From: Fodinisporobacter ferrooxydans
Lineage (GTDB): Bacteria; Bacillota; Bacilli; Tumebacillales; MYW30-H2
Assembly (NCBI RefSeq): GCF_022818495.1
Contig: NZ_CP089291.1
Location: forward strand, 2,187,501-2,251,500
Direction of reading: 5' to 3'
Length of the DNA: 64,000 bases
Within the stretch, counting starts at the first letter, position 1. Each line of letters opens with the position of its first letter. Of this stretch, positions 2,254-62,632 are shown one piece after another. The notes beneath the pieces are model-generated. The model saw only the letters and a list, made by a program, of their open reading frames with translations, was not told the origin of the DNA and searched no databases. The position numbers and the translations under genes are program-made.

Positions 2254-3153
2254 ATGAAGTTAAAAAAGAAAATTTTACTAGGTATTCCTCTGTTTTTGCT
2301 TGGGTCTGCAGCGCCAGTTTTTGCAAATACAGCCCAATACGTGGAGACAAACCATGGATGGGTCAGTTATCATAGCGGGCCAAGTCTGTCGAGCTCTGTG
2401 GTCGGACGTTTGAACCTCGGGGATAAAGCGCCGCTAGTCAAGAAAGCAAACAATTGGTGGTATGAGATCAATGTAAATGGGAAAAATGTTTACATAACGA
2501 CAAATTTCAAATATGTACATACTGTAACAGCGAATCAAACTGCTTCCAATCAAGCTGCTTCTAACCAAATTTCTTCCAAACAAGTGCAGCAAAACACAAA
2601 ACAAGTATTGCAGACAACACAATCGAAACAAGATTCACATTCGATACAACCTGCGCAATCGACGGGACAAGCCACATCCACAACCGGAAAAACACAGCAA
2701 AGTTTAACTGCTGAGCAGCAAAAACTGATGAACGTTGCGAAAACTCAAATCGGTGTTCCGTATCTTTGGGGTCATCAGATTCCAGGTGTCGGTTTTGATT
2801 GTTCGAATTTTACCAGTTGGGTTTATAAAACGGCGCTCGGAATCGATTTCTCCAGTTCGAGCCGCCAACAGCGCTACAATAGCTCAATCGGCAGACCTGT
2901 AGCAATCAATCCAAACAACAAGCTGGCGAATCTGCAAGTCGGGGATCTGTTATTCTTTAGGGATTCAGCAGACCCTGGCGACGGAAGCGTAGGTTTATCT
3001 ACCAGCGGCGGCGGCGGACATGTAGGCATATATGCAGGAAACGGCATGATCATCCAAGAGGGCGGCGGCCGCGGCAAGGTAACGTATGAACCAATGGCGG
3101 GCACCTGGTTCCTTAGAGATCTGGTGTATGCAAAACGTATCTTGGGAAACTAG
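2254..3153 (+). CDS. Secreted SH3b-NlpC/P60 peptidoglycan endopeptidase
   Basis: A 299-aa exported wall hydrolase expected to cut gamma-D-Glu/diamino-acid bonds in peptide stems. Signal peptide about 1-25 (LLGSAAPVFANTA), a bacterial SH3 domain about 28-90, a Gln/Ser/Thr-rich linker about 93-150 with near repeats of NQTAS/NQAAS/NQISS, and an NlpC/P60 domain from about 155. The catalytic Cys lies in GFDCSNFTSWVY and the His in GGHVGIYAGNGM. ATG 2254 follows AAAGGAG. Monocistronic: c-di-AMP riboswitch in front and a strong terminator 10 nt behind. Confidence 0.93.
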   Translation: MKLKKKILLGIPLFLLGSAAPVFANTAQYVETNHGWVSYHSGPSLSSSVVGRLNLGDKAPLVKKANNWWYEINVNGKNVYITTNFKYVHTVTANQTASNQAASNQISSKQVQQNTKQVLQTTQSKQDSHSIQPAQSTGQATSTTGKTQQSLTAEQQKLMNVAKTQIGVPYLWGHQIPGVGFDCSNFTSWVYKTALGIDFSSSSRQQRYNSSIGRPVAINPNNKLANLQVGDLLFFRDSADPGDGSVGLSTSGGGGHVGIYAGNGMIIQEGGGRGKVTYEPMAGTWFLRDLVYAKRILGN

Positions 3154-3218: not shown

Positions 3219-4397
3219 CTAAAAAGTTTCGAGCTTCAAGCAGGAAGCGGCCTTGGTTGCTTGCTGTCTTGCCATTTCGGTTGTTTCTGCTCCACTGAGT
3301 GTTACTGCCATTCGTCGTCCAATCGTGGCATCCGGTTTTCCAAATATGCGGACTTGCGTATTGGGAATGGAGAGTGCTGTCTCGATTCCGCTTATTTGGT
3401 AAGTTGGGCTTGCAGCAGCAGCCTTTACACTATGGCTGGCACCTGGTGTCAACAATTTGATTTCAGGAATGGGAAACCCGAGAATGGCCCGAACATGCAA
3501 AGCGAATTCAGAAAGGTTTTGGCTAATGAGTGTAACCAATCCTGTATCATGCGGACGGGGGGATACTTCGCTGAAGTATACTTTGTCTTGTGCGACGAAA
3601 AGCTCAACGCCGAAAACACCGTATCCTCCTAATGCATCTGTTACCTTGCGGCAAATATCGTGTGCTTCATGCAATTGATCTTCGTTTATGAAGTGAGGCT
3701 GCCACGATTCAATATAATCCCCATCTTTCTGCAGATGGCCGATTGGCGGGCAGAATAAGGTGCCCGAGACAGAGCGAACCGTTAATACGGTTATTTCCGA
3801 TTCAAATCGGATAAGTTCCTCGACGATCACACGGGCGTTTTTGACGCGCGCTGCCGTCATGGCATATTCCCATGCTTTGTCCGCATCGTCCAGAGACTTG
3901 CAAATGCTTTGTCCTTTCCCGGATGAACTCATCAGGGGCTTTACGACACAAGGCAATCCGATGGTTTGCACCGCTTGACGAAATTCAGCCAAAGTATTGG
4001 CAAAGGCGTATTTGGCTGTTGGGATGCCGAGATTTTCCGCAGCAAGCCTCCGTATTCCTTCACGATCCATCGTCAATCTTGCCGCATTTGCGGTGGGGAC
4101 TACATGAAATCCTTGCTGTTCCAATTCCACCAGAGCAGAAGTTGCAATCGCCTCAATTTCTGGTACGATACTGTCAGGTTTTTCAGAAAGGATCAGTGTT
4201 TTCAGCGCTTCAGGATCGACCATGTCAATCACATGGGAACGATGGGCGACCTGCATGGCAGGGGCGTCAGGATAGCGATCGACAGCTATCGTTTCCACTC
4301 CCAAACGTTGGGCTTCGATGACAATTTCCTTTCCCAGTTCTCCTGAGCCAAGCAACATAATTTTTTTCGCATGTGCGGAAAGCGGTGGTCCGTACAA
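3219..4397 (-). CDS. purT: Formate-dependent phosphoribosylglycinamide formyltransferase 2
   Basis: Converts GAR to FGAR with formate and ATP, the folate-independent third step of purine synthesis. An ATP-grasp enzyme: the N-terminal preATP-grasp domain opens with [11 protein letters not shown], followed by [19 protein letters not shown], the ATP-binding MSSSGKGQS loop and the metal-site [10 protein letters not shown]. The TTG at 4397 is preferred: GGGAGG lies 9 nt upstream and the length (392 aa) equals E. coli PurT, whereas the longer ATG at 4430 falls inside the riboswitch terminator region. Single gene under a ZTP riboswitch, which makes physiological sense because ZTP signals shortage of 10-formyl-THF. 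Confidence 0.95.
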
Positions 4398-4433
4398 ACT
4401 GCTTTTCCTCCCTTTATGCCGCCCGTGCATGGA

Positions 4434-4552
4434 AAATAAAAAAACCGCCCGGGCATTCGTACATTAGTAGCAATGTGCCCAGGCGGTCGGCTTTTAAAAA
4501 GTCGCACTTCCTTGTGGTGCTCCACAAATCCGCCAGTCATGCGACCAGAATT
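4434..4552 (-). promoter_or_regulatory. ZTP (pfl) riboswitch with terminator platform upstream of purT
   Basis: Reading the minus strand, TGACTGGCGGA (about 4530-4540) and the nearly invariant GCCGACCGCCTGGGCA (4476-4491) are the two conserved halves of the pfl/ZTP aptamer. The 3' conserved block is also the 5' arm of a terminator: CCGCCTGGGCA pairs with TGCCCGGGCGG, followed by seven T. Ligand binding should free the gene by preventing that hairpin. The location before purT agrees with known targets in one-carbon and purine metabolism. Confidence 0.92.
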
Positions 4553-11306: not shown

Positions 11307-11350
11307 TTCAATAAAGTAAGAAAACCTAACACGAATTGGGGGAGTGGTGC

Positions 11351-13774
11351 ATGAAAAAGAGAAAACTGTGTTTGGTTGGCAACGGCATGGCGGGTGTGCG
11401 CTGCATGGAAGAAATTCTAAAACTTGCGCCTGATTTGTTCGACATCACTATTTTTGGTCGTGAACCTCACCCGAATTACAATCGGATTTTGTTGTCTTCC
11501 GTTTTAGCCGGGGACGCAGATATACGAGATATCGTTTTAAACGATTGGAATTGGTACGAACAAAATGGCATCACTTTATACACAGGAGAAACCGTCACAT
11601 CGATCGATGCAGAACAACGCAACATCTACACTGACTGCGGGCGTGTTGAATCTTACGATGATCTCATTTTGGCAACGGGCTCACTTCCATTCATGCTCCC
11701 TCTGCCTGGTATTGACAAGGAAGGTGTGATTGCCTTTCGAGATATTAACGATTGCAAAACGATGATGGAAGCATCCAAAACATATAAGAAGGCAGTTGTG
11801 ATTGGCGGTGGTTTGCTCGGACTTGAAGCAGCACGCGGTCTGCTCAATCTTTCCATGGATGTGAGCGTTGTTCATATCTTTGACAACATTATGGAACGTC
11901 AGTTGGATCCAGTGGCTTCAAAATTGTTGCAAAGTGAATTGGAGAAACAAGGGATACGTTTCTTGCTGGAAAAACAATCGGCTGAAATCCTTGGTGACAC
12001 ACGCGTTACAGGTCTGCGCTTTGCGGACGGAACGGCAGAAGAGGCGGATTTGATCGTCATGGCTGTTGGCATTCGCCCGAATGCAGCACTCGCGCAAGAA
12101 AGCGGGATTGAAGTCAAGCGGGGTATCGTTGTCAATGACTACATGGAAACGAATATCGATCACGTGTATGCGGTTGGTGAATGTGCGGAACATCGCGGTA
12201 CGGTTTATGGATTGGTGGCGCCTTTGTTCGAGCAGGGAAAGGTCTTGGCAAAGCGCATTTGCCAAATGGATGCGGCGCCATATGAAGGCTCGACGCTGCA
12301 TACCAAGCTGAAAATTTCAGGTGTGAATGTCTTCTCGGCAGGTGAATTCATGGATACATCCGATACACGCGCCATCCGGGTTCACGATGAATGGGAAGGC
12401 GTCTATAAAAAAGTATTGGTGCGAGACGATCAAGTTGTGGGTGCTGTGTTATTCGGAGATACCAAAGATAGCACACGCATATTGGAAATGATCCGTACAA
12501 ACGCGACGATTTCAGAGCTGCAGCGCGTTGCCATCTTGCAAAATCTTTCCTCGTCTAGCGGTGCATCCGAATTGGATTATGTAGCGGCTATGAGCAGTGA
12601 CGAAATTATATGCGGATGTAATGGCGTTTCAAAAGGAACGATTGTAGAGGCAATTTATGAACACGGCCTAAATTCGGTCGAAGGAGTGAAAAAATGTACG
12701 GGCGCTTCTCGTTCCTGTGGCGGATGTAAGCCGTTAGTTGCAAACCTGTTGCAATGCGTTCTCGGGGATCAGGCACAAACTTCGAATCAAAAAGAGCCGA
12801 TTTGTACTTGTACAACGTTAAGCCGTGATGAATTGGTAAGAGAGATTCAAGAAAAATGCCTGACAAGTGTACGCGAGGTCATGCACGTTCTGGATTGGAC
12901 GGAACCTGAAGGATGCTCCAAATGCCGCCCGGCCATTAATTACTATTTGAATATGGTATTCCCGGAGCTTCATGAAGATGAGCGGGAATCCCGGTTTGTC
13001 AATGAGCGGATGCACGCAAACATTCAAAAAGACGGAACCTATTCTGTTGTTCCCAGGATGTATGGGGGAGTTACTTCACCTGCCGAGTTGAAGAAAATTG
13101 CCGAAGTAGCCGAGAAATATCAGGTTCCGCTGGTGAAAGTCACCGGCGGTCAACGGTTGGATTTGCTGGGCGTGAAAAAAGAAGATTTGCCGAATGTATG
13201 GCGGGATTTGGATATGCCCTCCGGATATGCGTACGGCAAAGCCATTCGAACGGTGAAAACATGTGTAGGAAGTGATTTTTGCCGGTTTGGCACACAAAAT
13301 TCCATTCAAATGGGAATTGATATCGAAAAAGCATTTGAGCGGTTAGATACGCCAGCCAAAATCAAAATGGCCGTTTCCGGATGCCCGCGAAATTGTGCAG
13401 AATCTTTGATTAAAGACATTGGCGTTGTCGGAATTGACGGCGGATGGGAGATTTATATCGGCGGAAACGGCGGTGTGCATGCAAAAGTGGCACAGCTCCT
13501 TTGCAAAGTCAAAACCAACGAGGAAGTAATGGAGTGGGTCGGTGCGTTCCTGCAATACTACCGTGAAAACGCAAATTATGGAGAACGAACATCCGCCTGG
13601 ATGGAGCGAATTGGATTGTCTTCCATTCAACGCGCACTTGAAAACACAGAAACCCGCAGGGAATTGAATTACCGGATTGCGGCAGCGCTAGGTGTCTTGA
13701 GTGATCCGTGGCAGGACATTATCCAAAAGGAAAATATCAGACAGTTGTTTGAAAACGTAGCAGTCAACGTATGA
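11351..13774 (+). CDS. nirB: Assimilatory nitrite reductase [NAD(P)H], large subunit
   Basis: Reduces nitrite to ammonium in the cytoplasm. Domain order over 807 aa: FAD/NAD(P)-binding disulfide-reductase-like module (GNGMAGVRC at the N-terminus, GGGLLGLEAARGL about 155), two BFD-type [2Fe-2S] modules (CGCNG about 421, CTCTT about 484) and the sulfite/nitrite reductase half with siroheme-[4Fe-4S] cysteines in CVGSDFCRFG (about 637) and GCPRNC (about 677). ATG 11351 follows GGGGGAG; an upstream in-frame start would add 5 residues without a better ribosome site. First gene of the nir unit, 13 nt before nirD. Called NasD in B. subtilis. Confidence 0.96.
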   Translation: MKKRKLCLVGNGMAGVRCMEEILKLAPDLFDITIFGREPHPNYNRILLSSVLAGDADIRDIVLNDWNWYEQNGITLYTGETVTSIDAEQRNIYTDCGRVESYDDLILATGSLPFMLPLPGIDKEGVIAFRDINDCKTMMEASKTYKKAVVIGGGLLGLEAARGLLNLSMDVSVVHIFDNIMERQLDPVASKLLQSELEKQGIRFLLEKQSAEILGDTRVTGLRFADGTAEEADLIVMAVGIRPNAALAQESGIEVKRGIVVNDYMETNIDHVYAVGECAEHRGTVYGLVAPLFEQGKVLAKRICQMDAAPYEGSTLHTKLKISGVNVFSAGEFMDTSDTRAIRVHDEWEGVYKKVLVRDDQVVGAVLFGDTKDSTRILEMIRTNATISELQRVAILQNLSSSSGASELDYVAAMSSDEIICGCNGVSKGTIVEAIYEHGLNSVEGVKKCTGASRSCGGCKPLVANLLQCVLGDQAQTSNQKEPICTCTTLSRDELVREIQEKCLTSVREVMHVLDWTEPEGCSKCRPAINYYLNMVFPELHEDERESRFVNERMHANIQKDGTYSVVPRMYGGVTSPAELKKIAEVAEKYQVPLVKVTGGQRLDLLGVKKEDLPNVWRDLDMPSGYAYGKAIRTVKTCVGSDFCRFGTQNSIQMGIDIEKAFERLDTPAKIKMAVSGCPRNCAESLIKDIGVVGIDGGWEIYIGGNGGVHAKVAQLLCKVKTNEEVMEWVGAFLQYYRENANYGERTSAWMERIGLSSIQRALENTETRRELNYRIAAALGVLSDPWQDIIQKENIRQLFENVAVNV

Positions 13775-13787
13775 GGAGGTAACTTAC

Positions 13788-14156
13788 ATGAAATTGGAAA
13801 TTATGCAATTAGAACAACTTCCTGTTCACACAGGACGCGTGATTCAAGTATTCGGACATGAAATTGCATTGTTTCGCCTTGGCAATGGGAAAATTCGGGC
13901 CGTGGAGAATCGGTGCCCGCATAAAGGCGGGCCTCTGGCAGAAGGAATCGTATCAGGTGATTACGTCTTTTGTCCGCTGCATGATTGGAAAATTTGCCTT
14001 GCAGATGGGAATGTACAATCACCTGATACAGGTTGTGTCAAGACATTTCAAACGGAAATCGAAGAAAATCGTATTTATATCATGATTGAGCCGCAAGAGC
14101 AAGGGGAACGGAGAGAGTCTTTAGTACCGGAGCAGGGATTGGTGAATCAAAAGTAA
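13788..14156 (+). CDS. nirD: Nitrite reductase small subunit (Rieske-type)
   Basis: A 122-aa Rieske [2Fe-2S] protein that accompanies NirB (NasE in B. subtilis). The cluster ligands are Cys and His of CPHKGG about 44-46 and CPLHDW about 63-66. ATG 13788 follows GAGGAGG, and the 13-nt gap to nirB indicates one transcript. Confidence 0.95.
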   Translation: MKLEIMQLEQLPVHTGRVIQVFGHEIALFRLGNGKIRAVENRCPHKGGPLAEGIVSGDYVFCPLHDWKICLADGNVQSPDTGCVKTFQTEIEENRIYIMIEPQEQGERRESLVPEQGLVNQK

Positions 14157-14244
14157 TCACGGTCTCAGAGCTTGCATGAATCCAGCATTGTTCGATCCCT
14201 GATCTTTGGTGGAAAGAAAATTCTTTCAGAGAGTTGGTGATGAC

Positions 14245-14433
14245 ATGCAACCATTGGGTTTGTATGAACCAACAATGGCAATTGAAACGATCGATTCGAT
14301 TTGTTGTTACTGCAGTGTTCAGTGAGGTATTTCGATTGAAGGTGAAAGTCTGAAAGGAAATCAGCATTCTCCTGTATCCTTTGGGAGACTTTGTCAAATT
14401 GACGTAAAAACGATGAATTTTCTATTAAATTAA
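14245..14433 (+). pseudogene. Remnant of an assimilatory nitrate reductase catalytic subunit (N-terminal fragment)
   Basis: A 63-codon frame between nirD and the nitrate transporter reads ...TIDSICCYCSVQ, a TGA stop at 14323-14325, then GISIEGESLKG...VSFGRLCQI. This is the N-terminal [4Fe-4S] signature of bis-MGD molybdoenzymes such as NasC/NarB (C-x2-C-x3-C...GRLC), with the third cysteine-bearing position replaced by a stop (the family usually has CSVQCG). Homology ends right after the fourth cysteine; the other 600-700 residues are gone. NasC normally sits with the nir/narK genes, so this is a deletion relic. Identified by motif only; a protein search should confirm. Confidence 0.75.
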
Positions 14434-14448
14434 AGCGGGGTGCAGGAT

Positions 14449-15660
14449 ATGCATGTAAAAGGGTTTCGCAAAGCAGGAAATATTCCGACACTGTTTGCTT
14501 CTTTCTTATACTTTGACATTAGTTTTATGGTCTGGGTATTATTCGGCGTACTAGGAATATTTATCGCGAAAGACTTTGGTTTGACTGCCACACAAAAAGC
14601 TTTATTGGCATCGATTCCAACTTTGGGAGGGTCGCTGTTTCGGATACCGTTGGGGTATTGCGCAGATCGTTTTGGAGCAAAGCGTACCGGAATCATTTCT
14701 ATGATTCTTACCATCATTCCTCTTCTTTTATCATGGCTTTTGGCGAATCGTGTCACGGAATTGTACGTTTTCGGATTTTTATTAGGCATTTCCGGCGCAA
14801 GTTTTGCAGTGGCGCTTCCCTTGGTAAGCCGATGGTATCCTCCTGAGTATCAGGGTCTCGCGATGGGCATTGCGGGCGCCGGCAATACAGGAACATTGAT
14901 CGCTACATTTTTTGCGGCGAGGATTGCGAAAGTGATTGGTTGGCACGGTGTATTTGGCCTCGCCATTCTGCCGATGATTCTTACATTATTCGTTTTTATT
15001 CTCATGGCAAAGGATAGCCCCACACCTGCAAAACAAAAGACATGGAACGAATATGGACGTTTGTTAAAAAAATCCGACTTGTGGTTCCTATGTATTTTGT
15101 ACAGTATTACTTTTGGCGGATTTGTAGGCTTCAGCAGTTATCTGGGAATTTTTCTCCATGATCAATACCGGCTCAAACCGATAGAAATTGCAAATATCAC
15201 AACGATTCTGGTTAGTCTGGGAAGCTTTTTGCGACCTGTAGGCGGATATCTCTCCGACAAGATTGGCGGCGGAAAAATGCTGATTCTCTTGTTGGGAGTG
15301 ATCGGAATCGCTTATATTGGATTAAGCTCGTTGCCTCCTTTGATGCTTGCTATCATTCTCTTTGGCATCATAATGATGGCGCTTGGAATGGGAAATGGCG
15401 CTGTTTTTCAAGTGGTGCCCCAATTGTTCCCGGATGAAATCGGAATCGTTACCGGAGTTGTAGGAGAAGCCGGAGGATTGGGCGGATTTTTTTTACCTAT
15501 GATTCTTGGAAAAGGAAAAGATTTGACAGGGTCTTTCGGAGCAGGGTTTATGGTTTGCGGAATTTTCATATTGCTTGTCCTCGTAATGTTGGTAGCCGTA
15601 CAAAAACGATGGGCGATCACAGCAAGGCAGACTCTACACTCGATTCAAATCGATGCGTAA
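14449..15660 (+). CDS. narK: Nitrate/nitrite MFS transporter (NarK/NasA family)
   Basis: A 12-helix MFS protein of the nitrate-nitrite porter family, about 403 aa. Family marks are RIPLGYCADRFGAKRTG after helix 2, GNTGTLIATFFAARIAK in the nitrate-signature position and the mirrored GEAGGLGGFFLPMILG in the second half. Starts at ATG 14449 or GTG 14440; neither has a textbook ribosome site, with GGGG 8 nt before the ATG. Lies behind nirBD and the decayed nitrate reductase fragment; with no reductase in the window it may now serve nitrite import or export. Confidence 0.9.
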   Translation: MHVKGFRKAGNIPTLFASFLYFDISFMVWVLFGVLGIFIAKDFGLTATQKALLASIPTLGGSLFRIPLGYCADRFGAKRTGIISMILTIIPLLLSWLLANRVTELYVFGFLLGISGASFAVALPLVSRWYPPEYQGLAMGIAGAGNTGTLIATFFAARIAKVIGWHGVFGLAILPMILTLFVFILMAKDSPTPAKQKTWNEYGRLLKKSDLWFLCILYSITFGGFVGFSSYLGIFLHDQYRLKPIEIANITTILVSLGSFLRPVGGYLSDKIGGGKMLILLLGVIGIAYIGLSSLPPLMLAIILFGIIMMALGMGNGAVFQVVPQLFPDEIGIVTGVVGEAGGLGGFFLPMILGKGKDLTGSFGAGFMVCGIFILLVLVMLVAVQKRWAITARQTLHSIQIDA

Positions 15661-56642: not shown

Positions 56643-56993
56643 TTAAACTGCAGAAGATGAAATCAACAATTCGAGTTTTGAAATGACTTCAGACAATATT
56701 TCTTCAGATGCTTTGCAAATGAAGGATGCTTGTCGGGATTGCCAATCCAGGCTTTTTACTTGATCAGAAAGGATGGCACCCTCAATTGGCAAATCCTGCG
56801 GAACAATAACCTCAAACGGATACCCCTTGATCTTTGATGTGACGGGGCAAAGTAAAGCCAAACCGGCTTTGCTATTGTAGGACTGGGGTGAAATAACAAA
56901 TGCCGGTCTTCTTCCAGCCTGTTCGTGACCAGATTGCGGAGTAAACTGCAGCCAAATAAAATCTCCACGTTCCGGGATGTATGTACTTACCAT
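56643..56993 (-). CDS. mazF: MazF-family mRNA interferase toxin
   Basis: A 116-aa ribonuclease toxin. PERGDFIWLQFTPQSGHEQAGRRP-type N-terminus (about 7-30) with the conserved Arg pair, LLCPVTSKIKGYPFEV and SDQVKSLDW are the family marks. It cuts specific sites in mRNA unless bound by MazE. It overlaps the antitoxin gene by 7 nt (start ATG 56993 in the mazE end). Confidence 0.94.
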   Translation of the reverse strand: MVSTYIPERGDFIWLQFTPQSGHEQAGRRPAFVISPQSYNSKAGLALLCPVTSKIKGYPFEVIVPQDLPIEGAILSDQVKSLDWQSRQASFICKASEEILSEVISKLELLISSSAV

Positions 56994-57217
56994 ACTTCAC
57001 GACCTTTTGCAGGGCCTGTAGCAATCTCTTTGTGAATATTGTCAGGTGTTATTTGCGATACTAATTCTTCCAACTTTTGTTGCTTTCGTTTAATAATAAT
57101 TTTGTCATTTTCAACGTCAAAATCAATCTCTGAACCTTCTTCAAGACCTGCTTTCACAGCTATTGCTTTCGGAATTCGTATGCCTAAACTGTTCCCCCAT
57201 TTTTGAACTTGGAACAA
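56987..57217 (-). CDS. mazE: MazE-family antitoxin (AbrB-type DNA-binding domain)
   Basis: A 76-aa antitoxin with swapped-hairpin AbrB domain (VQKWGNSLGIRIPKAIAVKAGL) and a C-terminal toxin-binding tail (VSQITPDNIHKE). TTG 57217 is chosen: AGGAGG lies 8 nt upstream, whereas the longer GTG at 57226 overlaps it. It should repress its own operon at the adjacent palindrome. Confidence 0.93.
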   Translation of the reverse strand: MFQVQKWGNSLGIRIPKAIAVKAGLEEGSEIDFDVENDKIIIKRKQQKLEELVSQITPDNIHKEIATGPAKGREVW

Positions 57218-57233
57218 ATCATACACCTCCTAC

Positions 57234-57526: not shown

Positions 57527-59773
57527 ATGTTTGATATGTACGACACAGGTTTCGTGGTAATCGGGGGAATGGTTTCTTTGATGCGTTTTGTGCCTGATGG
57601 GATAAGAATCACAGTTGGTTCAGAAATGATATGGTTCACCGCTTTTCTGCTCGTCATTGTATTGTTGGGGTGTATTATTGCAAAACTCAAGCAGAATATT
57701 GCAAACTTGAAAAGGACGGAAATCAAGTTGCAAGAACAACAAGATCAATTGCAGACATTGATTCATGCATTGCCGGATGCAATCAACTTCAAGGATGCGG
57801 AAGCAAGATGGATCGAGGCGAATCCCCCCATGCTCCGATTGTTCGGACTTGAGGGTATTGATGTTTACGGAAAAACCGATAAAGAATTGGCGCAGTACAC
57901 GTCGTTTTATCGGGATGCGTTGAATTATTGCGAAGTATCGGATGAGTATGCCTGGAAAGCGGGGAAAATCACCCGTGTGGAGGAGACGGTGTCTCAGCCG
58001 GACGGCAGCGTGAAAATCTATGATACGCATAAAGTGCCGATGTTTGATAAGAATGGCCGCCGCAAGGGATTGGTTGTCATAGGGCGGGACATCACCGAGC
58101 AAAAACAAATGCTTGAGGCGTTAAAAGAAAGTGAAAAGAAATATCGTACGTTGGTGGAATCTTCTCCGATCGGTGTCATGATTTATCAGAATGGCGTCAT
58201 TCACTATATCAATCCTAGCGGCGCCGACATTTTGGGTGCTCCAAGCGCAGAATCTTTACAAGGCTTCTCCGTATTAAACTTCATTCACCCAGATGTTCAA
58301 CCGGCTGTTTTGGAACAGATAAAAACGATGGCCGTCAGTCCACAAGAACCGATTGAAATCAAAGTTGTTTGTATGGATAAAAAAGAAGTGTATATTCAAA
58401 TATTCACACTTCCTATTCGTTTTAATGGAAAATCTGCTGTTCAAGTCGTATTTAATGATATTACGGAACGTAAAACAACGGATGAAAAGATCCGATATTT
58501 GGCTTTTCATGACGCGCTCACTGGACTTCCCAATCGCAAGATGATGCACTCGCACTTGCGGGATGCATTGAAAAGTCGACAAACACATGAGTCTGTAGCA
58601 GTCATGTTTATTGATCTGGATTCGTTTAAGCATATAAATGATACATTAAATCACACAGTGGGTGATGAGGTTTTAAAAGATGTCGCACAGCGATTGCAGG
58701 CGTGTGTCTTTGATTCCGGCATTGCCTGCCGGATGGGCGGTGATGAGTTTGCAATCATTCTGCCGAATGTCACGAATATGAATATCGTTCAAGGGATAGC
58801 GGATGGCATTCTCAAACAACTGCGAAAGCCCTTGTTTATCGAGGACAGAATTCTTCGTGTCACTGCAAGTATTGGCATTTCCTTTGCTCCAGATCATGGA
58901 GAACAGGTGGAACCATTGATTCGCAGTGCGGATATTGCCATGTATGCGGCAAAAGAACGCGGCAAAAACAAGTTTTATGTCTATACGCAAGAACTGCACA
59001 ACGAGTATTCCAGACGGCTGGAAATCGAAAATGCGCTGCGGGAAGCTGTTGAAAATGAACAGTTTGAAATCTTTTATCAACCGATTATCGACGTAAAAAC
59101 AGGTCATGTAGCAAGTCTTGAAGCGCTGATTCGGTGGAATCGGCCGGAATATGGCTTTGTTTCTCCGACAGAATTTATCCCGATTGCAGAAGAAACAGGC
59201 CAAATCATATCGATCGGAAGATGGGTGGCACGCAGTGTGTGCCGGCAAATTAAAAACTGGCAACAGCTTGGATATTCATTGGTTCCCATATCGATCAATG
59301 TTTCCGGAATGGATTTTCAACTTCCGGACTTTATGGAGAGATTCAAAGAGATTGTCAATGAAGGCGAGATTGATCCAAAATGGATCGAAATTGAAATTAC
59401 AGAGAGCGCGCTTATGAATGATATTCAGCATGCGATGCAAACGTTGAAAGATTTGAAGGAAATGGGCGTTCGATGTGCCATGGACGATTTTGGAACTGGT
59501 TACTCTTCGCTGAGCTACTTGAGAAAATTTCCGGTCGACAAACTCAAAATTGACCGATCGTTTGTCAAAGATATCTCGAATCAGGAAAATCAGGCAATTT
59601 TAAGAAATATTATTCAATTGGCGCGAAACCTCCGCCTTCTGGTAGTAGCGGAAGGAGTCGAGACACAAGAGGAATTGCGTTTTCTTCAATCTGAGATGTG
59701 TGACTATGTTCAGGGATACTTATACAGCCAACCGATCTCCGCAGCCGGGATTGAGGACCGCTTTTTGAAATAG
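57527..59773 (+). CDS. PAS-PAS-GGDEF-EAL cyclic-di-GMP enzyme
   Basis: A 748-aa membrane-attached signalling protein: one helix about 35-52, PAS domains about 75-195 and 200-315, GGDEF about 325-485 with an intact GGDEF motif at 404-408, and EAL about 500-745 with EAL at 532-534, DDFGTGYSS about 653, KIDRSFV and EGVET. Both catalytic motifs are present, so synthesis and breakdown of c-di-GMP are possible; no RxxD inhibitory site is visible. ATG 57527 follows GAGGAGAGG. A c-di-GMP riboswitch lies directly downstream. Confidence 0.95.
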   Translation: MFDMYDTGFVVIGGMVSLMRFVPDGIRITVGSEMIWFTAFLLVIVLLGCIIAKLKQNIANLKRTEIKLQEQQDQLQTLIHALPDAINFKDAEARWIEANPPMLRLFGLEGIDVYGKTDKELAQYTSFYRDALNYCEVSDEYAWKAGKITRVEETVSQPDGSVKIYDTHKVPMFDKNGRRKGLVVIGRDITEQKQMLEALKESEKKYRTLVESSPIGVMIYQNGVIHYINPSGADILGAPSAESLQGFSVLNFIHPDVQPAVLEQIKTMAVSPQEPIEIKVVCMDKKEVYIQIFTLPIRFNGKSAVQVVFNDITERKTTDEKIRYLAFHDALTGLPNRKMMHSHLRDALKSRQTHESVAVMFIDLDSFKHINDTLNHTVGDEVLKDVAQRLQACVFDSGIACRMGGDEFAIILPNVTNMNIVQGIADGILKQLRKPLFIEDRILRVTASIGISFAPDHGEQVEPLIRSADIAMYAAKERGKNKFYVYTQELHNEYSRRLEIENALREAVENEQFEIFYQPIIDVKTGHVASLEALIRWNRPEYGFVSPTEFIPIAEETGQIISIGRWVARSVCRQIKNWQQLGYSLVPISINVSGMDFQLPDFMERFKEIVNEGEIDPKWIEIEITESALMNDIQHAMQTLKDLKEMGVRCAMDDFGTGYSSLSYLRKFPVDKLKIDRSFVKDISNQENQAILRNIIQLARNLRLLVVAEGVETQEELRFLQSEMCDYVQGYLYSQPISAAGIEDRFLK

Positions 59774-59865
59774 TCTATCATTTTACTATACAGAAATTCT
59801 GGAAAATTGTTTATACTACAATTGTAGAATACTTGGATGGAATAGAAATGTGGCTGATAACACAA

Positions 59866-59972
59866 ATTCATCTATTCAGCGATAATGGCAAAACTGCGGA
59901 AACGCAGTGACGCAAAGCTAAAGGGACTAACTCATGAGATTTCTTATGAAATGTCAGCCAGATACCGAATTG
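59866..59972 (+). promoter_or_regulatory. c-di-GMP-I (GEMM) riboswitch
   Basis: Core text: AATGGCAAAACTG, GGAAACGCAGTGACGCAAAG, AGGGACTAA and the closing TGTCAGCCAG, which correspond to the GEMM P2 tetraloop, GACGCAAAGC core and P3. It lies about 30-130 nt before a SANT-domain gene and hemD. No terminator was seen between it and the gene, so translational or processing control cannot be told apart. Confidence 0.88.
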
Positions 59973-60001
59973 ACTAGTTTAAAAAAGAAGGTGTGTTATT
60001 C

Positions 60002-60412
60002 ATGTTGGCCTATACTCCGCAAGAAGATCAAATTATCATCAATTTTTACGGAAGAATCCCAATGAATGAGCTTGCAAAAATGTTGCCGGATCGCACGGAA
60101 CATGCGATACGCAGCCGCATCAGACGATTGCGTGGAACCTCGGGCAGACGTAAAAAAGGAACAGCCGGATCAACAAAAATCGATCCTATCCCGAACGTCA
60201 GAAATGACCCCATTGATTCATACACAAACGAGTTATACGTCAAGTTTATCAAATATGTGGAACAAGCGCGCCATTTAACATCCGAACAAAAAGCAAAACC
60301 TGATATTAATCATATGATGCGGGTGTTTCGTGACATACATGGAAGATTTTCAACAGAAGAAAATCAAAGTGAAACTTTATTAGATCCCGTAACGGAGGAA
60401 TCATCATGCTAA
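60002..60412 (+). CDS. SANT/Myb-like DNA-binding protein
   Basis: A 136-aa protein. Residues about 4-44 (YTPQEDQIIINFYGRIPMNE... PDRTEHAIRSRIRRL) form a SANT/Myb-type tri-helix; a basic linker follows and then an uncharacterised helical tail. The ATG at 60002 has AAGGTG 8 nt upstream. Its last 7 nt overlap hemD. Probably a transcription factor under c-di-GMP control; targets unknown. Confidence 0.75.
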   Translation: MLAYTPQEDQIIINFYGRIPMNELAKMLPDRTEHAIRSRIRRLRGTSGRRKKGTAGSTKIDPIPNVRNDPIDSYTNELYVKFIKYVEQARHLTSEQKAKPDINHMMRVFRDIHGRFSTEENQSETLLDPVTEESSC

Positions 60413-61227
60413 GCCTGGAAGGAAAAAGAGTTGTGCTGACAGGTTCCAGAAAAACGGCTGATTTGAGCGTAATTGTTGAAAAATTTCGCGGAATTCCTGT
60501 TTTAAGGCCAACACAGACAACAGTGGCAGTCAATGATCATGAAGTTGAGAGGGAAGTTGTTGCGTTTATCGAACGTGCAACCGATTGGGTCATTTTAACT
60601 ACCGGAGTCGGTGGGGAAATTTTGTGCCAAGCTGCAGAACGATTAGGTATACAGGAAGATTTTATTTTGAAACTTCGTACATCAAGGATTGCTGCAAGAG
60701 GATATAAGACGGTTCGTTTCTTGAAAACGCTGGAAATTGAACCGACAGTTCGTGATGATGACGGTACGACAGCAGGCCTGTTACGAGCACTTGAACATTT
60801 TGATTTAAAGGGGAAGAAAATATCGCTTCAGTTGTACGGAGATCATGCACCGCGTCTCGTCCAATGGCTGAAGGCCCAAAATGCTGAGATTTATGAGATT
60901 TTGCCATACAAACACATAGCCCCAGAGTTGTCGATCGTCGAAACACTGATTTCGGAGATCCTGCAAGGCGAGGTGGATGCAGTTACATTTACAAGTACGC
61001 CACAAGTACGGTTTCTGATGGAGTATGCCCGGAAAAAAGCTGTTTCGCAGCAAATTGTTGCAGCATTTCAAGGCGACATCGTTGCTGTTGCAGTCGGGAA
61101 GGTAACTGCGGAGGCTTTAAAAGAAGAAGGAATCGATCGCGTTATAACACCGAAAGAAGAACGCATGGGAAGCATGATCGCCGCTTTGGCTCGTTATTAT
61201 GAAGAAAACCGCAAATCGGACAAGTGA
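60406..61227 (+). CDS. hemD: Uroporphyrinogen-III synthase
   Basis: A 273-aa HemD-type enzyme that cyclises hydroxymethylbilane with inversion of ring D, needed for heme, siroheme and B12. Weakly conserved family, recognised by GKRVVLTGSRKT, DWVILTTGVGG, SLQLYGDHAPRLVQWL, VDAVTFTSTPQVRFLM and VAVGKVTAEALKEEG. No other hem genes accompany it, unlike the usual hemAXCDBL operon, so it could be a second copy serving siroheme for nitrite reductase (inference). ATG 60406 overlaps the upstream gene by 7 nt. Confidence 0.85.
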   Translation: MLSLEGKRVVLTGSRKTADLSVIVEKFRGIPVLRPTQTTVAVNDHEVEREVVAFIERATDWVILTTGVGGEILCQAAERLGIQEDFILKLRTSRIAARGYKTVRFLKTLEIEPTVRDDDGTTAGLLRALEHFDLKGKKISLQLYGDHAPRLVQWLKAQNAEIYEILPYKHIAPELSIVETLISEILQGEVDAVTFTSTPQVRFLMEYARKKAVSQQIVAAFQGDIVAVAVGKVTAEALKEEGIDRVITPKEERMGSMIAALARYYEENRKSDK

Positions 61228-61266
61228 TGGATTCTAACTCAAATTGTAAAAGAATCAATGATAACA

Positions 61267-61312
61267 GAATTCCGGCATGTTGCAAAATGATAGGTGCAAC
61301 ATGCCGGAATTC
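61267..61312. repeat. Perfect 18-bp inverted repeat
   Basis: GAATTCCGGCATGTTGCA and its reverse complement at 61295-61312 around a 10-nt loop. No T-run on either side. It lies between converging hemD and bioI transcripts and may work as a bidirectional stop. Confidence 0.75.
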
Positions 61313-61405
61313 TGGATCAATCATGTTCTCTTCCTAAATGTATCCGGAAAAATCCCAAACATAGTCTCATGTGTTGCAATCATTTGCAAGAGAATGGATG
61401 TTTCG

Positions 61406-62632
61406 CTACAGATTCGAAAAGGAAATGGGGAGTGTGTCAAGACCTCGAAAGCCAATCAACCCTCTCCATTGTGGTTCATCGATCAAAAGTTCGAGCTTCG
61501 ATGTTCGCCTAAGAAGTGTTTGAACGGCAATTTGCCCTTCTGTTCGCGCCAAAGCTGCACCCAAACAAAAATGAATGCCCCACCCGAATGCAAGATGCTG
61601 ATTGGAAGTTCGCGCAATATCAAGTCTGTCAGGCTCAAAAAATACTTCAGGATCGCGATTTGCGGCACCTAAAAATAGATGCACTTGCTGGCCTTTTTTT
61701 ATGAATTGATTCCCCAATCGCATGTCTTCCGTTGCAAAGCGAACTGTCATTTGCGTGGGTGTTTCATATCTTAGAAATTCTTCAACCGCTGAAGAAATCA
61801 GAGAAGGATTTTGTTTTAATTGTTCCAATTGATCTACGTTCGATAGCAACAAAAGCATGCCATTGCCAATGAGATTCACAGTATTTTCATGGCCGGCATT
61901 CAATAATAAAATACAGGTTGCCAATAATTCATCTTCATTGAGTGGGTTTTCCTGCTTTGTTTCTGCGAGTAATGCACTAATAAGATCATGTTTCGGATCT
62001 TCACGCCGTTTTTTGATAAGATATTGAAAATATTCAATCAATTCACCGGCAACTTCCGCACCCTTGTAAAGAGTCGTATCTGTTCGAATCAAATCAATGG
62101 ATTGAATCAAGGTATTTGACCACTGTCGAAACCGTTCGCAGTCATCCATCGGCACTCCCAACACTCTGGCGATCACGATTGCAGGCAAAGGGAAAGCGTA
62201 ATCGGAGATAACATCCATCGTTCCCGCGTCCTGCTTTGAATCGATCAGATAATCGGAAATTTCTTGCACATGCTCTTGCAGGTGCTGTGTATGTTGGTTG
62301 AATACTTTGCTCACAAATGTACGGATTCGGGTATGATCCGGCGGATTTTGGAAGAGAAACATATGTTCCTGTAATTTTACGAATGGCCGAAATCTTCGAA
62401 AGACGTTTGAAGCTGCAATCCGCTTTTGGAAACGGGGATTTTTAAGGATATCGAAAACATCTTGATACCGTGTAATCATCCACCCTTCCTGCCCGGGCAA
62501 TGACAGCCAATGTATGGGATCATGGGAACGCAGCCAATGATATGTCGGATAAGGATTTGCAAGGAATTCCTTCGCAGTCGGATCGATTGTTTCTGTTTTG
62601 TACGTATTTTCATGTGAGCAGTTCTTTACCAT
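61406..62632 (-). CDS. bioI: Cytochrome P450 BioI (pimelate-forming)
   Basis: A 408-aa P450 much like B. subtilis BioI, which cleaves acyl-ACP chains to pimeloyl-ACP for biotin. The heme ligand Cys about 356 is in FGWGIHFCLGAALAR, the I-helix is LLNAGHENTVNLI, the ExxR is EEFLRYETPTQMT, and LLGAANRDPE-type text matches BioI. ATG 62632 follows GGAGG at 6 nt and lies inside the last codons of bioF, which makes coupling clear. Other P450 functions cannot be ruled out from sequence alone. Confidence 0.85.
   Translation of the reverse strand: MVKNCSHENTYKTETIDPTAKEFLANPYPTYHWLRSHDPIHWLSLPGQEGWMITRYQDVFDILKNPRFQKRIAASNVFRRFRPFVKLQEHMFLFQNPPDHTRIRTFVSKVFNQHTQHLQEHVQEISDYLIDSKQDAGTMDVISDYAFPLPAIVIARVLGVPMDDCERFRQWSNTLIQSIDLIRTDTTLYKGAEVAGELIEYFQYLIKKRREDPKHDLISALLAETKQENPLNEDELLATCILLLNAGHENTVNLIGNGMLLLLSNVDQLEQLKQNPSLISSAVEEFLRYETPTQMTVRFATEDMRLGNQFIKKGQQVHLFLGAANRDPEVFFEPDRLDIARTSNQHLAFGWGIHFCLGAALARTEGQIAVQTLLRRTSKLELLIDEPQWRGLIGFRGLDTLPISFSNL

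Follow-up and report, generated by a model that had tools for sequence, protein, structure and literature searches.

What does a c-di-GMP riboswitch control when its aptamer directly precedes a gene for a small putative DNA-binding protein and, overlapping it, a second gene for uroporphyrinogen-III synthase? The locus that raises this question lies in a stretch of 64,000 nucleotides of Fodinisporobacter ferrooxydans DNA (the window), and its features are collected in Table 1. The aptamer can be taken as a confirmed member of the c-di-GMP-I (GEMM-I) class. The Rfam search of the window returned it at full length (model positions 1-87 of 87, E 6.1e-13), and at 75.2 bits against a gathering score of 35 bits a chance match is very unlikely and was rejected. 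An earlier note on this DNA had claimed a GEMM aptamer here and had named failure in a covariance search beforehand as one outcome that would refute it; the match bears the claim out, and the note's coordinates are right to about 10 bases. Pairing within the aptamer is well kept: of the 21 model pairs in which both positions are occupied, 20 are standard pairs. The selectivity position holds a G (not A), the first G of GGCAAA, which by our own mapping we take to be the equivalent of Vc2 G20. The Vc2 G20 position is, in the portion of PMC9262584 that deals with it, a selectivity factor and not a hard filter. Genome-wide, six RF01051 aptamers were found, this one included. The Rfam search also returned two aptamers far from the site: a c-di-AMP aptamer (2122-2249, 91.9 bits) directly 5' of an ORF that looks SH3-like and NlpC/P60-like by eye (2254-3153), and a ZMP/ZTP aptamer (4470-4550, minus strand, 64 bits) preceding a gene that by eye is purK/purT-like (3219-4430).

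Table 1. Features of the aptamer-led operon and its surroundings (window coordinates).
Feature	Position	Strand	Basis
PAS-PAS-GGDEF-EAL gene (c-di-GMP turnover)	57527..59773	+	Pfam EAL 273 bits, GGDEF 171 bits, PAS
5' strand AUAACACA of possible long-range helix P0, closing around the aptamer	59857..59864	+	perfect complement; minimum-energy fold
c-di-GMP-I (GEMM-I) aptamer	59877..59969	+	RF01051, 75.2 bits
Shine-Dalgarno-like AGAAGG of the first gene	59986..59991	+	sequence
3' strand UGUGUUAU of possible helix P0, between Shine-Dalgarno and ATG	59992..59999	+	perfect complement; minimum-energy fold
Gene for small Myb/SANT-like putative DNA-binding protein, 136 aa	60002..60412	+	PF00249, PHROG 323
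Shine-Dalgarno GGAGGA of hemD2	60394..60399	+	sequence
hemD2, uroporphyrinogen-III synthase (NF004584 type), 273 aa	60406..61227	+	PF02602, NF004584, PDB sequence matches
20-bp perfect inverted repeat, arms 61265-61284 and 61295-61314	61265..61314	.	read from sequence

The gene upstream of the aptamer, which the earlier note had read as GGDEF-EAL, was confirmed as such by Pfam, and both motifs are intact in its translation; a MazF/PemK-like and AbrB/MazE-like gene pair (56643-57226, minus strand, by eye) adjoins it. Downstream, 32 nt separate the end of the aptamer from the first ORF, which runs from an ATG at 60002 to a stop at 60410-60412. The match of its protein to Pfam Myb (PF00249; 20.7 bits, E 4.4e-4) stays below the cut-off of 24.4, but residues 3-49 match PHROG 323 ('transcriptional regulator, D5-like') at E 1.8e-8, so that 'SANT/Myb-like', the reading already proposed for this gene, seems a fair though not a certain label. 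A single-sequence structure model of the protein has a mean pLDDT of 43, too low to judge a three-helix fold. Relatives of the gene were found in two of 398 genomes of the class, its own included, the other being a match at E 2.3e-4 within a 513-aa ORF; no match appeared among plasmids or phages. The ATG of hemD2 (60406) lies inside the end of this gene, and the 7-nt overlap, together with a Shine-Dalgarno sequence for each gene, supports the two-gene operon that had been suggested. The assignment of the second gene to uroporphyrinogen-III synthase is likewise upheld, HemD2 scoring 138.2 bits against PF02602 (HEM4; cut-off 27.5) and about 353 bits (352.9-353.4) against NF004584 (cut-off 233). 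The inverted repeat beyond it sits between the convergent hemD2 and P450 genes; it has no T run and was not called by the terminator scan, and is possibly a two-way terminator. The P450 gene and a neighbour that is bioF-like look, by eye, as if they belonged to a biotin operon.

This hemD is not the only one of the organism, whose genome (4.86 Mb, one contig) has two PF02602 matches. The better match is an ordinary hemD within hemC–[535-aa cobA-hemD fusion]–hemB (gene names read from the sequences), which settles whether the main hem operon holds another hemD, as the earlier note had asked, and rules out the copy in the window as the sole one. Against NF004584 the main HemD reaches only 56.9 bits. 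The same note had called a hemD outside a hem operon unusual, and this does not hold. A paralogue of the NF004584 type occurs in 83 of the 398 class genomes (E <= 1e-25), and its neighbours vary, with no hem operon seen by eye in the 23 loci whose genes were printed (one species being represented twice). A solitary hemD is therefore ordinary for this type; the position behind a c-di-GMP aptamer is not. In one species the paralogue lies with cobalamin genes, elsewhere it adjoins nitrite reductase genes (both by eye), and the Thermus oshimai relative stands inside a nitrite/sulfite reductase–sirohaem operon. Just 3' of the paralogue, three genomes of one family have a cobalamin riboswitch. The closest kin of HemD2 (in genome G368) is 63-64% identical. 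Within the order, only the genome studied here, one of 14, carries the paralogue, none being found in the other 13 at E <= 1e-20.

The arrangement of aptamer, SANT-like gene and hemD was found in this single genome only. The earlier note had asked whether the order recurs, and it did not do so in either direction of search. No RF01051 aptamer was found near any of the 51 other hemD2 loci (searched as 16, 20 and 15 loci), which encode 48 distinct proteins and comprise 22 from a first set, with flanks of up to 4 kb, and 29 from 82 other class genomes with a match, with flanks of up to 1.5 kb. At just one of these loci does an ORF of 70 aa or more run across the start of hemD2; it is 70 aa long and by eye does not resemble a gene. 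At another, a gene that is TetR-like by eye ends about 94 nt 5' of the paralogue. Conversely, among 73 RF01051 aptamers in the 14 order genomes, a hemD was among the following ORFs only in the window, in a survey that read at most the first three ORFs per aptamer and no annotation, so that tiny or later genes can escape it. The first half of the arrangement did reappear: an aptamer followed by a small HTH-like gene was found in the window and at four further places, all in one genome (G001) and all lacking hemD. Elsewhere in the organism's own genome (C1:3515736-3515822) a c-di-GMP-I aptamer stands 5' of a stand-alone Trans_reg_C (winged-helix) gene, which is followed by a patatin-like gene (by eye).

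G001 belongs to another family of the same order, and four of its c-di-GMP-I aptamers lead copies of the small gene, 'HTH-like' referring to one copy tested against PHROG 323 (E 4.7e-5, with no Pfam match); near a fifth copy no RNA-family match was found. These loci share with the window an aptamer of the same class directly 5' of a gene for a small protein (120-130 aa in G001) whose N-terminal part, in the one copy tested, also matches PHROG 323. They differ in having terminator hairpins, no hemD and no Pfam match, and only the C-terminal ~50 residues of the proteins are weakly similar. When the window protein was compared with G001 proteins, the aligned score was reached by 2 and 32 of 2000 shuffles for the whole sequence, by 0 and 4 for the C-terminal part, and by 1015 and 1657 for the N-terminal part, which MAFFT misaligned. 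Comparison by hhalign gave P values of 0.028 and 0.016 with probabilities below 3%. With a profile of the four G001 proteins the window gene was not recovered at E <= 0.01, nor was it with a C-terminal profile from eight other sequences, whose two matches in genome G000 (E 0.25 and 0.61) lie elsewhere. A profile built from G001 alone found the C-terminal ~50-aa segment in small ORFs of three other genomes of the order (E 8.6e-8 to 6.4e-7); no c-di-GMP aptamer was found near them. Two other aptamers of G001 precede, by eye, folE-like and PTPS/QueD-like genes in one case and a PLP-decarboxylase-like gene in the other. In all four switches before the small gene, a hairpin and then a T run follow the aptamer. 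The minimum-energy folds form closing stem and terminator together in two of the four, while the other two keep the terminator and pair the 5' flank elsewhere. Given this co-formation, and a complementary segment next to the closing stem, the G001 switches look like OFF switches acting by termination.

In the window, the terminator scan found no terminator-like site in 59700-61420, and hence none between the GGDEF-EAL gene and the aptamer, which makes control of translation the simplest platform. The candidate device is helix P0, in which eight perfect base pairs (59857-59864/59992-59999) would close around the aptamer and cover the spacer between Shine-Dalgarno and ATG. Shuffled flank pairs equalled this match in 74 of 5000 cases, and distance-matched places in the window did so in 5 of 640; a chance level of about 0.8-1.5% is suggestive of a real helix but is not proof. 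The helix appears in the minimum-energy fold both with and without the aptamer core enforced, so the fold alone shows no switching. When its 5' strand was blocked, the unpaired fraction of 59992-60004 rose from 0.32 to 0.39 with the core free and from 0.31 to 0.50 with the core enforced; the Shine-Dalgarno sequence of the first gene is half open in the folds (0.51-0.52 unpaired). There is no covariation behind P0, since no homologous leader was found. The promoter scan counts against P0, in that no promoter was found 5' of 59857 and the only plus-strand candidate (59857-59886) would start the RNA inside the aptamer, and P0 would be lost.

Class I c-di-GMP switches of either direction, ON or OFF, are known from the part of PMC6366702 concerned with them. 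On balance we incline, by a little more than an even judgement, to a riboswitch that controls the bicistronic operon as a translational OFF switch via P0, with HemD2 as a working second synthase. Binding of c-di-GMP would stabilise the closing stem of the aptamer, and this in turn would favour P0, which spans the stretch from Shine-Dalgarno to ATG. Less of the small DNA-binding-like protein, a putative transcription regulator, would then be translated, and less HemD2 as well, by coupling to the first gene. At low c-di-GMP, HemD2 could add flux to sirohaem or related tetrapyrroles beside the hemD of the hem operon. The OFF direction is itself a reading of the predicted folds, and an ON switch, though unlikely, deserves a hearing: without ligand, the aptamer's 3' portion would pair with the coding start, and c-di-GMP would free the ribosome site. 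With the 5' strand of P0 blocked, the unconstrained fold indeed pairs GCCAG of the aptamer's 3' side with UUGGC in the first codons, and a class I switch of Bacillus thuringiensis is ON in the account excerpted from PMC6366702. With the 5' flank present, however, the fold prefers P0, and the four G001 switches, which carry terminators, also count against ON, two of the four folds looking OFF and the other two keeping the terminator but pairing the 5' flank elsewhere. That the aptamer is a relic with no regulatory effect is very unlikely; only seven of the 12 class I aptamers of Clostridioides difficile 630 are functional according to the relevant part of PMC6366702, but the high score and the nearly complete set of standard pairs argue against decay here.

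Whether a synthase is what this switch would govern depends on HemD2 itself. The sole PDB matches of HemD2 at E <= 0.001 are the synthase chains 1wcx, 1wcw and 3d8n (E 1.9e-28 to 1e-27), which we take to be Thermus thermophilus chains. To this Thermus-type synthase (NF004584) it is a full-length match with most conserved residues kept. Elsewhere the type stands alone or close to genes for sirohaem or cobalamin; in the window its gene overlaps that of a putative DNA-binding protein, downstream of a c-di-GMP aptamer, and the genome has the hem-operon hemD besides. In 51 relatives, representing 48 distinct proteins, 56 alignment columns are constant to at least 96%; HemD2 keeps 53 of them and departs from near-invariance at D19, R28 and T38. 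At eight of the 56 (G13, Q37, T39, G120, H170, Q200, L204, E252) it has the residue of the Thermus oshimai row, from which both rows of NnaR type differ; at five (L4, G6, D191, T196, P249) it has the residue of both NnaR rows but not that of Thermus, L4 and G6 being gaps in the Thermus row. These columns mildly favour an enzyme. Tyr168, the conserved pocket tyrosine with a catalytic role, is common to HemD2, the main HemD, Thermus, the two NnaR rows and all 51 rows from Bacilli, and so does not tell enzyme from NnaR. In the HemD tree the two NnaR rows group with the main HemD, apart from the 50 remaining rows (support 98/97); the branches of main HemD, Thermus and NnaR are long, and the placement of Thermus is unreliable. 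Ten NIR_SIR domain matches in the genome make a demand for sirohaem, and with it an extra supply, plausible. One of them (13235-13648) falls in the window, in a nirB-like gene (11336-13774) whose distance of about 46 kb from hemD2 excludes a common operon; nirD-like and transporter-like genes accompany it (11336-15660). The existence of the main hemD means that hemD2 need not serve flux, which counts against that part of the reading.

NnaR offers a different role for such a domain. In actinomycetes it is a fusion of HemD with a winged helix, its HemD domain being reported as inactive in Streptomyces coelicolor and suggested as a sensor of HMB or uroporphyrinogen III (PMC11162112). HemD2 could thus be a tetrapyrrole sensor and not an enzyme, working with the coupled Myb/SANT-like protein as a two-gene counterpart of NnaR. 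We consider this improbable, although it is not without points in its favour: HemD2 matches PRK07239 at 160 bits (cut-off 273; model 9-273 of 381), a Tsukamurella relative with HEM4 and Trans_reg_C lies between nitrate/nitrite transporter and sirohydrochlorin chelatase genes, the five NnaR-like columns are shared, and an overlapping DNA-binding-like neighbour is unseen at the 51 other hemD2 loci. The HemD domains are related and the DNA-binding partner is linked here by gene overlap, but the genes are separate, the partner is Myb/SANT-like and not a winged helix, and HemD2 consists of HEM4 only, lacking the C-terminal winged-helix domain that defines the fusion. The SANT-like gene is unfused, and no counterpart of it was found as a neighbour of hemD2 at other loci; the two NnaR rows group with the main HemD away from the rest of the tree (on long branches). 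With eight columns agreeing with Thermus against five for NnaR, HemD2 is more probably a second synthase than one part of a divided NnaR-like regulator. The synthase may nonetheless be incidental. That the DNA-binding protein is the real target of the switch, and hemD2 a passenger that landed downstream, is a serious if doubtful possibility; it accords with the four G001 loci, where the same layout does without hemD2, with the aptamer of the own genome that leads a Trans_reg_C gene, and with the fact that hemD2 was not found in the 13 other genomes of the order. Against it stand the 7-nt overlap and the good Shine-Dalgarno sequence of hemD2, typical of coupled expression, and the profile searches, which do not link the G001 genes to the window gene, so that homology is not established. 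The preferred reading remains an OFF switch over both genes, with HemD2 as enzyme.

The literature searched for c-di-GMP or its riboswitch together with uroporphyrinogen-III synthase, haem biosynthesis or hemD yielded no such operon. One apparent report (PMC5932348) was set aside, the 'hemD' in its consulted text being the start of HemDGC. For a diguanylate-cyclase mutant of Porphyromonas gingivalis, PMC10101095 reports changed expression both of a haem-uptake cluster and of a uroporphyrinogen-III synthase gene, an indirect link between c-di-GMP and tetrapyrroles. The targets of class I switches that PMC6366702 names are genes for motility, chemotaxis and adherence and genes of the tfoX type. 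The switch in the window resembles other RF01051 riboswitches in its full-length aptamer above the curated score, its selectivity G and its ORF with a Shine-Dalgarno sequence 32 nt on, but it leads a Myb/SANT-like gene and hemD instead.

Taken together, a well-supported c-di-GMP-I riboswitch, whose two-gene target is unusual and was seen in a single genome, suggests a possible link between c-di-GMP and tetrapyrroles; it is a finding of moderate weight, because this link depends on a single example in which hemD2 could be a passenger. Should the switch indeed govern a tetrapyrrole enzyme along with a DNA-binding protein, the supply of sirohaem or haem would come under direct influence of c-di-GMP, and this in a genome that encodes several NIR_SIR proteins. 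By analogy with the proposal for NnaR, it is conceivable, though quite improbable, that the SANT-like protein and HemD2 form a two-part regulator that senses a tetrapyrrole intermediate and whose level is set by the riboswitch; one operon would then integrate lifestyle signalling with tetrapyrrole status, and the adjacent GGDEF-EAL protein would close the loop. More broadly, the four aptamer-led small HTH-like genes of G001 suggest that c-di-GMP switches may sometimes act by setting the levels of small dedicated regulators.
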